Shown here: positions 1,052 through 46,196 of the stretch, in pieces
How the letters are laid out: each line of letters begins with the position of its first letter
How positions within the stretch are numbered: position 1 is the stretch's first letter
Assembly: GCF_900182635.1 (NCBI RefSeq)
Contig: NZ_FXTD01000004.1
Coordinates: 124,001 to 188,000, forward strand
Length of the DNA: 64,000 bases
Source of the DNA: Halorubrum cibi
GTDB taxonomy: Archaea > Halobacteriota > Halobacteria > Halobacteriales > Haloferacaceae
Reading direction: 5' to 3'
Program-made: the position numbers and the translations under genes
The notes under the pieces: generated by a model
Databases searched by the model: none
The model's input: only the letters and a program-made list of their open reading frames with translations
What the model was told of the DNA's origin: nothing

Positions 1052-2845
1052 ATGACGGAACGGATCGACGTGTTACACGTCGACGACGATCCCTCGGTGC
1101 TCGACCTCACCGAGGCGTATCTCGACCGCGAGCTGGCGTCGGCGTCGGTGACGAGCGTGACGGGGCCGGAGGCCGGTCTCGAGCGGCTCGACGAGGAGTC
1201 GTTCGACTGCGTCGTCAGCGACTACGACATGCCCGGGATGGACGGATTGGCGTTCTTCGAGACGCTGCGGGAGGACGACCCGCACGTCCCGTTCGTGTTG
1301 TACACGGGCAAGGGATCCGAGGAGATCGCGAGTCGGGCGCTCAACGCGGGCGTCACGGGCTACTTCCAGAAGGGCGGACCCGAACAGCTCCAGCGGCTCG
1401 CGAACCGGGTCGACCAGGCGGTCGAGGAGCATCGGACCAGGGCGGTCGCGGACCGCTACTCGACGGTCATCGACGCGCTCGGCTACCCGGTGTACGTCGT
1501 CGACGAGACGGGAGCGTTCACCTTCGTCAACGAGCCCTTCGCCGAGTTGACCGGGTACGACCGCGAGGAGATCCTCGGCAGTACGCCCGACCTGATCAAG
1601 GGCGACGAGGCGGTCGCCGAGGCGGAAGACCGGCTCGGGTCGATCCTCTCGAGCGACGGTCCGGGCATCCAGCGGTTCCGCGTCGACATCGATCCCAAGG
1701 AGGGCGATCCCATTCCCTGTCGCGACCACATGGCGGTCCTCCCCTACGAGGGCGAGGAGTTCGACGGCAGCGTGGGGATCCTCCGGGACGTCTCCGAGGA
1801 GGCGGCTCGCCGCGAGGAGCTGGAGACGAAACGCCGGGCGCTCGATGAGGCCCCCGTCGGGATCACCATCACCGACCCGAGCCTGCCGGACAACCCGATG
1901 GTGTACGTCAACGACGAGTTCGTCGAGATGACCGGCTACGACCGCGAGGACGCGGTCGGGGTCAACTGCCGGTTCCTACAGGGCGAGGAGACCGACGAGG
2001 CCGCGGTCACCGAACTCCGGGAGGCGATAGACGCCGAGGAGCCCGCGAGCGTCGAGCTGTTGAACTACCGGAAGGACGGCACGCCGTTCTGGAACCGCGT
2101 CAGCGTCGCGCCGATCCGCGAACACGACGAGGACCGCGTCACGGGCTGGGTCGGCTTCCAGGAGGACATCACGGCGTTCAAGGAACGCGAAGGGGCGCTC
2201 CGCCGGCAGAACGAACGGCTCGACGAGTTCGCCGGGATCGTCAGCCACGACCTCCGGAACCCGCTCAACGTCGCCCGCGGGCGCGTTGATCTGGCTCAAG
2301 AGGAGACGGGGAACGACCACCTCGCCGCTGCGGCCGACGCGCTCGACCGGATCGAGTCGATAGTCGAGCACACGCTGACGCTGGCCCGCGAGGGGGAGAC
2401 CGTCGGCGACCCGGAGCCGGTCGACCTCGCAACGCTGGTCGACGACAGCTGGGGCACCGTCGACACCGACGAGGCGGACCTCGAGATCGACCTCGAGGGA
2501 CACGTCCTCGCCGATCCGGATCGGCTCAGAAACCTCTTCGAGAACCTCATCAGGAACTCGATCGAACACAGAGGGGCCGACGACCCCGTCACGATCCGCG
2601 TCGGCGATCTCGGAGACAGGTTTTACGTCGCGGACGATGGACCCGGGATCCCCGAGGAGGTTCGAGACGACCTGTTCGAGCCGGGCGAGAGCGGAGCCGA
2701 GGGGAACACCGGATTCGGGTTGGCCATCGTCAAGGAGATCGCCACCGCACACGGCTGGGAGATCGCGGCCACGACCCCCGAGACGGGGGGCGCACGCTTC
2801 GAGATCCGCGGCGTCGTCCGCCCCGAGAAGGAGCCCGCGGAGTAG
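1052..2845 (+). CDS. Receiver-PAS-LOV sensor histidine kinase
   Basis: Soluble 597-residue signalling kinase with no membrane segment. Domains in order: CheY-like receiver (about 1-115, phosphoacceptor D57 in VVSDYDMPGMDG); a PAS domain (about 140-250); a second PAS domain (about 260-375) with LOV hallmarks; HisKA (H399 in VSHDLRNPLN); HATPase (N box NLFENLIRNSIEH, G1 VADDGPGIP, G2 TGFGLAIVKE). The LOV part contains GVNCRFLQG with C306, NYRKDG, FWN and a late Gln in GFQEDIT. These are the residues that bind FMN and form the cysteinyl adduct in blue-light LOV sensors. The likely role is light-dependent autophosphorylation, with the N-terminal receiver as an input or phosphorelay site. No partner regulator gene is adjacent. 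Flavin binding is inferred from the motif. Confidence 0.9.
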   Translation: MTERIDVLHVDDDPSVLDLTEAYLDRELASASVTSVTGPEAGLERLDEESFDCVVSDYDMPGMDGLAFFETLREDDPHVPFVLYTGKGSEEIASRALNAGVTGYFQKGGPEQLQRLANRVDQAVEEHRTRAVADRYSTVIDALGYPVYVVDETGAFTFVNEPFAELTGYDREEILGSTPDLIKGDEAVAEAEDRLGSILSSDGPGIQRFRVDIDPKEGDPIPCRDHMAVLPYEGEEFDGSVGILRDVSEEAARREELETKRRALDEAPVGITITDPSLPDNPMVYVNDEFVEMTGYDREDAVGVNCRFLQGEETDEAAVTELREAIDAEEPASVELLNYRKDGTPFWNRVSVAPIREHDEDRVTGWVGFQEDITAFKEREGALRRQNERLDEFAGIVSHDLRNPLNVARGRVDLAQEETGNDHLAAAADALDRIESIVEHTLTLAREGETVGDPEPVDLATLVDDSWGTVDTDEADLEIDLEGHVLADPDRLRNLFENLIRNSIEHRGADDPVTIRVGDLGDRFYVADDGPGIPEEVRDDLFEPGESGAEGNTGFGLAIVKEIATAHGWEIAATTPETGGARFEIRGVVRPEKEPAE

Positions 2846-2862
2846 ACGAGACGCTCTGAACC

Positions 2863-2908
2863 GGACCGACAGGAATCGGACTGACAGGAACGGGACCGAC
2901 GAGGAACC
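2863..2908 (+). repeat. Three imperfect 15-bp tandem repeats
   Basis: Units beginning GGACCGACAGGAATC, GGACTGACAGGAACG and GGACCGACGAGGAACC follow each other just after the kinase stop codon. Non-coding; possible slippage product. Confidence 0.6.
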
Positions 2909-2980
2909 GAAGCGGCGAGAAACCGGATCCCCTCCCGCCGTCCGCAAGGGCCTTGACCGGCCGGATCGAACCCGGACCGA

Positions 2981-4297
2981 ATGGGATCGATCTCGGAGAT
3001 ACTCGGGACCGATCGCCGCGTGATCGTCCTCGCGCTCGCGCGGATGGTCGGCGCGGTCGGTAACTCGTTTCTCATCGTCGTCCTCCCGCTTTACGTCGCC
3101 AGCGACCTGATCGACATCGGCGCGCTCATCGGATCGAGCGTCGGGGTCGGGGCCGCGAGCGTGACGCTCACCGAGCCGCTCCTCATCGGGATCGTCCTCT
3201 CGCTTTTCGGCTTCCTCAACAGCTTCTCACAGCCGTTCACCGGGCGACTCTCCGACCGGTTGGGAACCCGGCGACCGTTCGTGCTCGCGGGAATCCTGCT
3301 TTTGGGGACCGCGAGCGCGCTCTACACGCTCGCGGACGCCTACTGGATCCTCGTCGTCCTCCGCGCGACCCAGGGCTTCGGAGCCGCGTTGACGATCCCG
3401 GCGACGGTCGCGCTCGTCAACGAGTACGCGGGCAGCGCGGACCAGCGCGGGGGGAACTTCGGCGTGTTCAACACCTTCCGGCTGATCGGGTTCGGCTTCG
3501 GCCCCGTCCTCGCCGGCGTCGTCGTCGACAACGGCCCCTACGACCTCTCTGCTGTCGGGCTCCCCGTGATAAACGGATTCGACGCGGCCTTCGCGGCCGC
3601 CTGTCTCGGCGCGTACCTCAGCTTCCTCCTCGTCTACCTCCTCGTTCACGACGCCGCCGACGCGGCCGAGGCGGGAGACGACCTCTCGATCCGTGTCCGC
3701 GGCGAGGACCGCCTGCTCGACCCCGTCTTCGTGCTCGGGATCGCGACGGTGGCGATGGGACTGTGTATCGCGCTGTACGCGACGCTCCAGAACCAGGTGA
3801 ACCTGCGGCTGGATCAGCCGCCCGTCTGGTTCGGCGTCCAGTTCGCGGCGGTCACCATCGCGAACGTGGCCCTCCAGGTCCCCGTCGGGCGTGCGAGCGA
3901 CCGGATCGGCCGCCGACCGTTTCTGGTGGCCGGATTCCTGCTCCTCGCGCCCACGACGCTGTTACAGGGGATCGTCCTCTCGCCGCTCCTGATGACTATC
4001 GTTCGCCTCGGCCAGGGGGTCGCCGTCGCGTTCGTCTTCGCGCCCTCGCTCGCACTCGCCGGCGACCTCGCGCGGGAGGGCGAGTCGGGGACGACGCTGT
4101 CGGTGCTCACCATGGGGTTCGGATTCGGCGTCGCGCTCGGGCCGCTGGCATCCGGCTGGCTCGTCGGCTTCGGCTTCGTCGTCCCATTCGCCGTCGGCGG
4201 GGTCCTCGCGCTCGTCGCGCTCGCGTTGGTGATGACGCAGGTCGAGGAGACGCTCGAGACGGCCGACCCCGCGGGCGGGACCGCCGCGGACGACTGA
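2981..4297 (+). CDS. MFS transporter
   Basis: Integral membrane protein of 438 residues with about 12 hydrophobic segments. It has the major-facilitator motif A after TM2 (GRLSDRLGTRRP) and its repeat in the second half (GRASDRIGRRPF), with an acidic central loop (about residues 225-245) between two six-helix bundles. It resembles the drug/sugar efflux branches of the superfamily. The substrate cannot be told from sequence. Proton-coupled transport is the family norm. The ATG at 2981 is chosen because the first helix starts about 15 residues later. The next gene starts 38 bases downstream in the same direction. Confidence 0.85.
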   Translation: MGSISEILGTDRRVIVLALARMVGAVGNSFLIVVLPLYVASDLIDIGALIGSSVGVGAASVTLTEPLLIGIVLSLFGFLNSFSQPFTGRLSDRLGTRRPFVLAGILLLGTASALYTLADAYWILVVLRATQGFGAALTIPATVALVNEYAGSADQRGGNFGVFNTFRLIGFGFGPVLAGVVVDNGPYDLSAVGLPVINGFDAAFAAACLGAYLSFLLVYLLVHDAADAAEAGDDLSIRVRGEDRLLDPVFVLGIATVAMGLCIALYATLQNQVNLRLDQPPVWFGVQFAAVTIANVALQVPVGRASDRIGRRPFLVAGFLLLAPTTLLQGIVLSPLLMTIVRLGQGVAVAFVFAPSLALAGDLAREGESGTTLSVLTMGFGFGVALGPLASGWLVGFGFVVPFAVGGVLALVALALVMTQVEETLETADPAGGTAADD

Positions 4298-4335
4298 ACC
4301 CGACTCGATAAGTCCCCGCCGCCCGAACGGGGGCC

Positions 4336-4614
4336 GTGCCTCGCGACCGCGTCCACTGCGTCGACTGCCGCGAGCCGATCCCCGGCGACGCGCGGGTCTG
4401 TCCGCACTGTCGGGCGCTCCAACCCTCGCCGCTCGTCGACGTCGGCATCGTCGTCTCCGGCGTCTTCGCGTTCGTCTTCGGCGCGATCCTCGCGTTGATG
4501 ACGATCGGGACGACCCGGCTCGCCGGTTTCCTGCTTCTCGTCGTCGGCTTCGGGCTCGCGGTCGGCGGCTACACGCGCCACGTCGACCGGACGGCGGAGC
4601 GCCGGGCGCGGTGA
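4336..4614 (+). CDS. Zinc-ribbon two-helix membrane protein
   Basis: Small protein of 92 residues with a GTG start. The N-terminus has a zinc-ribbon (CVDC at residues 8-11 and CPHC near residue 22) followed by two hydrophobic helices (about residues 34-58 and 62-80) and a basic tail. The predicted topology is a cytosolic zinc knuckle anchored in the membrane. Function unknown; such proteins are common in haloarchaea. It lies close behind the MFS gene and may share its transcript. The last codons and stop are part of a 16-bp tandem duplication. Confidence 0.75.
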   Translation: MPRDRVHCVDCREPIPGDARVCPHCRALQPSPLVDVGIVVSGVFAFVFGAILALMTIGTTRLAGFLLLVVGFGLAVGGYTRHVDRTAERRAR

Positions 4615-43953: not shown

Positions 43954-44088
43954 GCCCCGAGTTCGTCGATACGGGACAAAAGGGCCGCGCTCCGGGTGCG
44001 TCGAGCGCGTCGGGGCGACGAAGGCCTAGCGGCGAACGACGCGGTCGAACCGAAACGGTAAGACGCCCCGCCGACTCGGCGTGGACGT

Positions 44089-44898
44089 ATGCCACGGAGC
44101 CCCGAGCGACTCGGAAAGGCCCACGAGACGTGGACGCGCGACGAGCTCAACGGGGACGACCCGCAGCCGGACACCGAGGCCCAGCTCGAGTACCTCGACG
44201 AGGACGAGCGCGAGCGAGTGCGGATCGGGGCTCGCGAGGCCGCGCAGTTCGTCCGCGAACACACGCCCTTCGCGATCGAACGCGCGACCGAGGAGGGCGA
44301 CGCGCGGAAGACCGACCCGACCGACGACGTCGACGTCGTGGTCCACGGCGAGGGTCGGAGCAAGGGCTACTCGCTGAAGCTCACCTCGAGCACCGCCATC
44401 AACGTCCGGAACACCCTCGCATCGAAGGTCGCCGAGGACGTCTTCGGGAAGGACATCTCCGAGCTTCTGAGCCCCGAGGAGTTCGCGACCTACGAGCGGG
44501 TGACGCGGGAGTTCGTCGCCGAGGAGTGCGGCGGCTCCGACATGGCGGCCGCGATGACCCCCGTGTTCGCGGAGAAATTCCGGGCGTTTCGCGACGCCGA
44601 CGAGGCGACGCTCCGGGAGCGACTCCTCGAGCACGTACGCCTCGATGCGGACATGGTCGCGTGCAAGGTGACGGCCGCCGGCAACTTCCACGGGTTCGCC
44701 TCGATGGAGCGGGCCCCGCTCCGGAAGTTCCAGGACGGGACCGGCGACCTGTCGATCTACACCACCGAGTCGAACGACACCTCGATCTTCTTCGACGTGG
44801 ACGGCGAGGCGGCGTTCCGGATCGACATGTACGGCCAGTACAGCGGGAGCACCCGGAAACCCCGGATCAAGACGGTCTATCGAGTGACGTTCGGGTAG
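44089..44898 (+). CDS. Candidate Type II restriction endonuclease
   Basis: 269 residues of unknown family, adjacent and tail-to-tail to a C5 cytosine methyltransferase. The core has an acid-rich strand (PTDDVDVVVHGEG; D80 and D82) followed 13 residues later by YSLKLTSSTAINVRN (S95, K97). An Asp strand followed by SxK is the arrangement of PD-(D/E)XK nucleases that use Ser or Gln in place of Glu, as in HaeIII-like enzymes. A C-terminal part (ASMERAPLRKFQDG, YGQYSGSTRKPRIK) is rich in basic and aromatic residues suited to DNA. No similarity to a named enzyme is claimed. Confidence 0.6.
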   Translation: MPRSPERLGKAHETWTRDELNGDDPQPDTEAQLEYLDEDERERVRIGAREAAQFVREHTPFAIERATEEGDARKTDPTDDVDVVVHGEGRSKGYSLKLTSSTAINVRNTLASKVAEDVFGKDISELLSPEEFATYERVTREFVAEECGGSDMAAAMTPVFAEKFRAFRDADEATLRERLLEHVRLDADMVACKVTAAGNFHGFASMERAPLRKFQDGTGDLSIYTTESNDTSIFFDVDGEAAFRIDMYGQYSGSTRKPRIKTVYRVTFG

Positions 44899-44919
44899 GA
44901 CGGATCGCGGGCCGCCGAC

Positions 44920-46065
44920 TCACGCGATGTCGGTGAGCGACTGCTGCTCGTAGACGTCGGGGTCGACGCGATCCACCTCGCGGATCTCGGGGTAGTACTC
45001 GCGAAACCGCTCCGCCAGCCTCTCGGCCAGCCCGACCGGGACCGCGTTGCCGATCTGTTTCATCACGTCAGTCTTCGTCCCCTCGAACGCGAACTCGTCG
45101 GGGAACGTCTGGAGCCGCGCCATCTCGCGCGGCGTGAGGTACCGGTCCTCGGTCGGGTGGATGAAGACGTTGGTGCTCACCGTCAGCGACGGCTCCTCGG
45201 GATGGAGCCGCCGGAGGTACGTCCCGTACCGCTTGACGATCTCCGGTTCGTGCGGGCAGGCGTCGGTGTCATCACAATCACACCGGTACTTCTTCGTCTT
45301 CAGCCGGTCCGGGAGGTCCCGGTAGTAGCCCCCCGGCGGGACGTGGCGGATCCGCTCGAGCGTCTTCTCCTGCGTATTGGCGTAGGTCACGTTCGGGAGG
45401 GCGTCGGTCACGTCGGCGAGCGCTTCCCCCGCAGTCCGCCAGTTCGCCTCCGACGGCGTCGTCGGCTCCGGAAACCGGATCGGGACGTCCCGGTTCGTCC
45501 CGATGAAGAAGATCCGCCGGCGTTTCTGGGGGACGCCGTACCGCTCGGCCTCGAGCACCCGGTACTCGCAGTTGTATCCCTCCGTCTCGAACTGCCGGAC
45601 GATCAGGTCCTTCACGTACCGGTCGTCGCTCGTCTGCCGGTTTATCAGGTCGCGGACGTTCTCCATCAGGACCAGTTGCGGATCGAGCACGGTGACCATC
45701 CGGAGGAACTCCTCGAAGAGCGTGTTGCGTCGGTCCTTCTCCATCTCGTCGAGCTCGATCCGCTCGTTGTTGAGCCGGCTGAACCCCTGACACGGCGGGC
45801 CGCCGATCACGACGTCGACGTCGTCGGGATCGTGGCCCGTCTCCCGGACGGTCTCTCGAAGGTCGTCGTCGTCGAGTTCGCGGACGTCTTCCTCGAGGAA
45901 CCGGACGTCGGGACGGTTACTTCGGTACGTCTCCGCGGCCGATTCCCACTGGTCGCTCGCGAGGATCACGTCGAACCCGGCCCGCTCGAACCCGAGATCG
46001 AGCCCGCCGCAGCCGGAGAAGAAGCTGGCGACGACCGGCCCGCCCTCGGTTCCGTCAGCGCCCAT
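44920..46065 (-). CDS. DNA (cytosine-5) methyltransferase
   Basis: 381 residues from the ATG at 46065 (an in-frame GTG lies three codons earlier). Motif I FFSGCGGLDLGFERAG, motif IV GGPPCQGFS with C92, motif VI ENVRDL, motif VIII QKRRRIFFIG and motif IX-X RLQTFPDEF...KQIGNAVP. The target-recognition part contains a Cys cluster (YRCDCDDTDACPHEP), which may bind zinc. It methylates a specific cytosine, most simply to protect sites cut by the adjacent nuclease. The recognition sequence is not predictable. Confidence 0.93.
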   Translation of the reverse strand: MGADGTEGGPVVASFFSGCGGLDLGFERAGFDVILASDQWESAAETYRSNRPDVRFLEEDVRELDDDDLRETVRETGHDPDDVDVVIGGPPCQGFSRLNNERIELDEMEKDRRNTLFEEFLRMVTVLDPQLVLMENVRDLINRQTSDDRYVKDLIVRQFETEGYNCEYRVLEAERYGVPQKRRRIFFIGTNRDVPIRFPEPTTPSEANWRTAGEALADVTDALPNVTYANTQEKTLERIRHVPPGGYYRDLPDRLKTKKYRCDCDDTDACPHEPEIVKRYGTYLRRLHPEEPSLTVSTNVFIHPTEDRYLTPREMARLQTFPDEFAFEGTKTDVMKQIGNAVPVGLAERLAERFREYYPEIREVDRVDPDVYEQQSLTDIA

Positions 46066-46196
46066 CGCCGTCACCTCGGGGCGACGCGCGCTCGCTTCGT
46101 CGACTCATCTACCCGTGCTTCGTCGCGATCGCATAAAAACCACCCATCTTCGGCGATCGGCTGGCCGCGTTCCGTCCCCGACCCCGCCGCCGGCGG

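Follow-up and report, generated by a model that had tools for sequence, protein, structure and literature searches.

Two convergent genes were found to lie tail-to-tail in the window, by which the whole stretch of 64,000 nucleotides of Halorubrum cibi DNA that was analysed is meant. The open reading frame calls and translations were found to contain a 269-residue protein on the forward strand followed by a C5-cytosine DNA methyltransferase on the opposite strand, with 21 bp between the two stop codons (Table 1). Both genes and the 21-base spacing were located where the preliminary description had placed them; its outer coordinate, 46065, is an ATG lying three codons inward of the GTG at 46074, with which the methyltransferase can also start. 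A synteny break among relatives was observed at window positions 46150-46185, where the pair stays with Trm1 and the genes that flank the methyltransferase on its far side are found elsewhere in several genomes.

Table 1. Features of the convergent gene pair and its surroundings, in window coordinates
Feature	Position	Strand	Basis
Edge of the missing pair in three close relatives	44063..44127		Homology next to Trm1
Candidate restriction endonuclease of 269 aa, outside the named families	44089..44898	+	ORF, translation
E13, invariant Glu in N-terminal helix; possibly an extra catalytic acid	44125..44127	+	Alignment; helix 4-20 in AlphaFold2 model
D80-V-D82, proposed metal-binding acids before a strand	44326..44334	+	Both Asp invariant; strand 83-87; putative role
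S95-L-K97, proposed (D/E)XK position with Ser replacing the acid	44371..44379	+	Invariant; strand 90-97; putative role
Intergenic gap between convergent stop codons, 21 bp	44899..44919		Gene coordinates
C5-cytosine DNA methyltransferase, 384 aa, complete gene, predicted target TGCA	44920..46074	-	PF00145, TIGR00675; TGCA depletion
Approximate, putative target-recognition region of the methyltransferase	45145..45402	-	Between RYGVPQKRRRIF and RLQTFPDEF motifs
Catalytic Cys95, motif IV (GGPPCQGFS)	45790..45792	-	Translation

The methyltransferase was found to match PF00145 at 2e-69 (residues 16-356) and TIGR00675 at 5.8e-61, and its assignment as a C5 cytosine methyltransferase in the preliminary description is unambiguous. 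The C5 motifs I, IV (PCQ), VI (ENV), VIII (QxRxR), IX and X were readable in the translation, which places it in this class; the GGPPCQGFS stretch was taken to be motif IV from general knowledge of C5 methyltransferases. The best solved relative was found to be the HaeIII C5 methyltransferase (1dct, E 4.6e-35), which belongs to the same enzyme class but methylates GGCC, and the best-matching stretch (residues 16-204) lies outside the recognition region.

Searches of Pfam, NCBIfam, PADLOC, PHROGs and solved structures gave nothing meaningful for the 269-residue protein, and its sequence matched none of the named nucleases, in line with the preliminary description. The PADLOC Cas6-like scores (best 0.0032) were too weak and were ignored, as was a weak NCBIfam kinase score. 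No relative was found outside Halorubrum in the viral contigs, the phages and the phylum-wide draw that were searched, and the sole match to the family in a plasmid collection was the H. salinarum plasmid copy. Weak class-level matches (L010-L012, E 4e-5 to 0.009) were set aside because they lay inside longer, apparently unrelated open reading frames. The residues E13, D80, D82, S95 and K97 were found to be invariant in an alignment of nine homologues down to 42% identity, and the D80/D82, S95 and K97 pointed out earlier were thus both present and conserved. The protein was found to be under purifying selection (dN/dS 0.08-0.25), which indicates that it is in use.

Two AlphaFold2 models (pLDDT 82-83) were used for the fold, one of the window protein (pLDDT 82) and one of a 45% homologue. 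In the model of the window protein, D82 precedes the strand 83-87 and S95 and K97 are contained in the strand 90-97, so that D80/D82 and S95-x-K97 stand at successive strands, with no acid at the first (D/E)XK position. Neither model was found to have a PDB match at E <= 0.001 in Foldseek. The VIA list contained a weak match to HinP1I over near-whole length (Z 4.3, rmsd 8.3, 186 residues), which was not among the matches listed for the second model, as well as weak matches to MspI (Z 3.4, rmsd 8.0, 170 residues; for the second model, Z 2.9) and to the Cas4-like ACE1 (Z 4.6, rmsd 5.7, 113 residues). These three rows stand among unrelated VIA rows of similar Z, and the absence of other families from this list carries no information; the modelled likeness to HinP1I, MspI and ACE1 is therefore a lead only. 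HinP1I (GCGC) and MspI (CCGG) are small enzymes which recognise 4-bp palindromes, are paired with C5 methyltransferases, and contain Gln or Asn in the active site where the 269-residue protein contains Ser; no sequence similarity between them and this protein was detected.

The 269-residue protein may have the PD-(D/E)XK fold proposed in the preliminary description; the models gave weak near-whole-length matches to two such enzymes and no significant PDB match. A different fold, belonging either to another nuclease or to a DNA glycosylase with the half-pipe of R.PabI, is considered unlikely but is to be taken seriously, as R.PabI was found in the PDB search at E 1.6 and the beta-rich C-terminal half matched START-like and Integrator beta folds about equally well. 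It is opposed by the alignment of HinP1I and MspI over nearly the whole chain, by the invariance of D80, D82, S95 and K97, and by the viral matches to the nuclease model in a Foldseek search of BFVD. The latter were uncharacterised cyanophage and giant-virus proteins (E 1.5e-9 to 3.5e-3; cyanophage TM about 0.4), among them a protein of cyanophage S-RIM50 (L074:44671-45501, 276 aa; equated with the listed match by this length) containing D84 followed by S98xK100, a spacing similar to that of D..SxK in the 269-residue family. The alignment of the S-RIM50 protein with the 269-residue family by hhalign was not significant (probability 0.2%), and the cyanophage relationship is only a lead. Variants of PD-(D/E)XK enzymes with a displaced acid exist (PMC6344858, PMC1189080), and the CCGG family with a permuted active site (Cfr10I, NgoMIV, PfoI) has its (D/E)XK acid at such a displaced position. 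The D80xD82..K97 arrangement resembles the active site E113..E167xD169..K187 of PfoI (PMC6344858), whereas the predicted target differs from that of the CCGG family. The 269-residue protein is inferred to be a nuclease that depends on metal and is centred on D82 and K97, in which D80, D82 and K97, together with E13, would form the metal site of a PD-(D/E)XK-like core.

Seven Halorubrum genomes, including that of the window, were found to contain a 70-100% copy of the 269-residue protein, and the same convergent methyltransferase lay beside it in all seven (7/7); in H. alkaliphilum the intact pair was found at an unrelated genomic place. The recurrence of the convergent pair in all close relatives, together with the purifying selection, indicates that the pairing is more than chance. 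Of 52 Halorubrum genomes surveyed, 10 were found to contain the protein or a remnant of it and 25 to contain the methyltransferase, and all 10 were among the 25 (hypergeometric 2e-4, without correction for phylogeny), so that the nuclease candidate was never found without the methyltransferase (10/10). Such inclusion is expected of a restriction enzyme, which needs this protection, whereas a bystander does not.

The methyltransferase was unlinked in three of the ten genomes. Homologues of 42-45% with no adjoining methyltransferase were found in G102 and G147 (H. salinarum plasmid pHAR01). In G206 the homologue was broken and likewise had no adjoining methyltransferase. The 83% methyltransferase was present elsewhere in each of these three genomes. 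Homologues away from methyltransferases, which the preliminary description had named as a ground against the pair, were thus present in form only: two intact homologues and one remnant are unlinked, but all three genomes contain the methyltransferase at another place. The remnant of G206 (L022:7801-8994) was found to consist of two pieces with a stop-codon-bearing sequence between them. The solitary 45% homologue of pHAR01 is located at L222:8001-8810, in a region containing a transposase, an integrase, TnpB and a PD-(D/E)XK family gene, and the protecting methyltransferase is chromosomal.

In a second clade of carriers, the methyltransferase was found at one conserved chromosomal place and was mostly solitary, adjoining in most cases a 684-aa protein and a gene which, from reading its sequence, we take to be carbonic-anhydrase-like. 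Three genomes of this clade were found to contain a different nuclease-like gene convergent beside the methyltransferase, about 50-60 bp off, which matched PDDEXK_5 (PF11645, 2.7e-45 for the one copy scanned), as though the methyltransferase also served as partner to another kind of nuclease. This gene is intact in L051, L059 and L061 and shortened in L065, from a fourth genome, and its third-position GC is low.

The frequencies of 4-7 bp palindromes that were sufficiently frequent were compared between methyltransferase-positive and methyltransferase-negative genomes in samples of mostly 20-40 kb. TGCA was found to be the single outlier, with a mean log2 observed/expected ratio of -1.06 in the positive and +0.02 in the negative genomes (p 2.8e-6 among 134 motifs), and among all 136 tetramers only TGCA was strongly depleted in the positive genomes, the next tetramer reaching p 0.0018. 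In whole genomes, CTGCAG was counted 11-122 times in all 25 carriers (25/25) and 358-625 times in 24 of the 27 non-carriers, and GTGCAC 8-79 versus 121-294 times, whereas reversed control patterns were not split in this way. In a PheT tree, built from one gene and midpoint-rooted, the carriers were found in two separate clades, both depleted of TGCA, with undepleted non-carrier lineages between them. The association of TGCA with the methyltransferase therefore has about two independent gains behind it rather than 25, which is its chief weakness.

The three non-carriers with low CTGCAG counts (G170, 79; G009, 96; G335, 219) were all found to nest inside the clade of the pair in the PheT tree, and both genes were absent from the site of the pair in each. 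Next to Trm1, homology to the window stopped just before the start of the nuclease gene, at 44063/44064, in two of them (G009 and G170). In G335 it extended to 44127, so that some 13 codons from the beginning of the nuclease gene were retained. Loss of the pair is direct in G335, from this 13-codon remnant, whereas in G009 and G170 the tree and the footprint point to it. Persistence of avoidance after the loss of a system has been documented for bacteria, and site avoidance was found to be caused only by orthodox Type II systems (PMC4687349).

The depletion could also come from C-to-T mutation at 5-methylcytosine, in which case it would show the site of the methyltransferase and say nothing on the nuclease. 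The equally strong avoidance of TGCA in the clade that today mostly contains the methyltransferase without the 269-residue nuclease speaks for this; under restriction avoidance, a former or different nuclease must be assumed there. Deamination was nevertheless disfavoured by a coding-phase test, in which some counts were small, and is judged improbable. TGTA, the product of deamination, was not raised (119 and 141 versus 147 per 100 kb), and NNT-GCA, where a C-to-T change is non-synonymous, was also depleted, with observed/expected ratios of 0.27 in the clade of the pair and 0.62 in the solitary clade versus 1.75. The ATG-CAn codon pairs, from which no synonymous change can remove TGCA, were kept in carriers (0.84 and 1.15), whereas CTG-CA and GTG-CA were reduced to 0.06-0.14 versus 0.55 in non-carriers. 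This coding-phase pattern and the flat TGTA support a 4-bp target and selection against the site; the target is therefore predicted to be TGCA and the cause to be restriction avoidance. A 6-bp target, suggested by the most-depleted palindromic flanks, was rejected, as most of the flank effect disappeared in the coding-phase test; where T occupies the third codon position, depletion was similar for all four 5′ flanks (0.12-0.20).

We have high confidence in the explanation that the pair is an orthodox Type II system acting on TGCA, with a candidate nuclease family that is new by sequence. In the cell's own DNA, TGCA would be marked at its cytosine by the C5 methyltransferase, and the 269-residue protein, which is probably the nuclease, would cut unmarked TGCA in incoming DNA, for example of viruses and plasmids, both enzymes presumably reading the same 4-bp site. 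The Type II pair claimed in the preliminary description is in this respect well supported by the conserved convergent linkage, by the confinement of the nuclease candidate to methyltransferase genomes, by purifying selection, by the occurrence of the unit at an unrelated locus, and by a TGCA avoidance that follows the methyltransferase. The chance is small that TGCA is the target of some other restriction system, unrecognised and present in the same two clades, and that the pair has another site. With only two carrier clades, another gene of the same distribution would fit, and other nuclease or methyltransferase genes do adjoin the methyltransferase in some genomes; however, no other tetramer or tested palindrome was found to split comparably, and the three pair-less genomes inside the clade of the pair show partial or old footprints. 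Slighter still is the prospect that the methyltransferase is an orphan housekeeping enzyme and the 269-residue gene an unrelated neighbour. The mostly solitary, fixed methyltransferase of the other clade and the unlinked homologues and remnant would agree with it, but it is opposed by the linkage held in seven genomes, the relocated copy included, by the restriction of the 269-residue protein to methyltransferase genomes and the selection on it, by the joint absence of both genes from the site in three relatives, and by an avoidance of TGCA that suggests restriction and not methylation alone. A Type IV enzyme cutting the methylated site would likewise be found only in methyltransferase-bearing genomes, but such an enzyme would attack the marked DNA of its own host, and with both genes intact and jointly under purifying selection this is highly implausible.

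The Type II reading may be extended, rather doubtfully, to a long-lived TGCA C5 methyltransferase in Halorubrum that is resident in the genome and licenses interchangeable nucleases. Unrelated nuclease genes, namely the 269-residue family and the PDDEXK_5 proteins of three other genomes, would take up a convergent position next to it, and solitary homologues of the 269-residue protein, one of them plasmid-borne, would enter protected hosts only. As a conserved, mostly solitary gene kept at one chromosomal place in many Halorubrum genomes, the methyltransferase resembles the persistent orphan methyltransferases of Halobacteria (CTAG, GATC; PMC6471742, PMC10609329). These are m4C or m6A enzymes, whereas the Halorubrum enzyme is a C5-cytosine methyltransferase, and it was not found to be named in the passages of the two papers that were covered.

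The 4-bp palindrome predicted for the Halorubrum pair is also that of two Type II enzymes. CviRI of a chlorella virus has the site TGCA, and the partner methyltransferases of CviRI and of HpyCH4V from Helicobacter are adenine methyltransferases, whereas the Halorubrum partner is a C5-cytosine enzyme; the source organisms differ as well. The site of HpyCH4V is TGCA (PMC6449724), so the kind of system is known; what is new is the nuclease family, its C5 partner and the predicted target. If the Type II reading is true, the pair would represent a restriction enzyme family with no detectable sequence relatives outside Halorubrum, to which a specific, testable target was assigned from genomes alone. 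The natural losses would provide a before-and-after series for how long a footprint outlives its restriction system in archaea, and a salt-tolerant TGCA cutter together with a C5 TGCA methyltransferase could serve as tools for haloarchaeal genetics.

A further arrangement was observed in G037, a genome of the second carrier clade (L056, reverse-complement 1483-4593), where a second C5 methyltransferase of 611 aa, containing an extra C-terminal region, and a 407-aa gene with no Pfam family were found to be inserted next to the conserved methyltransferase. This insertion is possibly another restriction-modification system.
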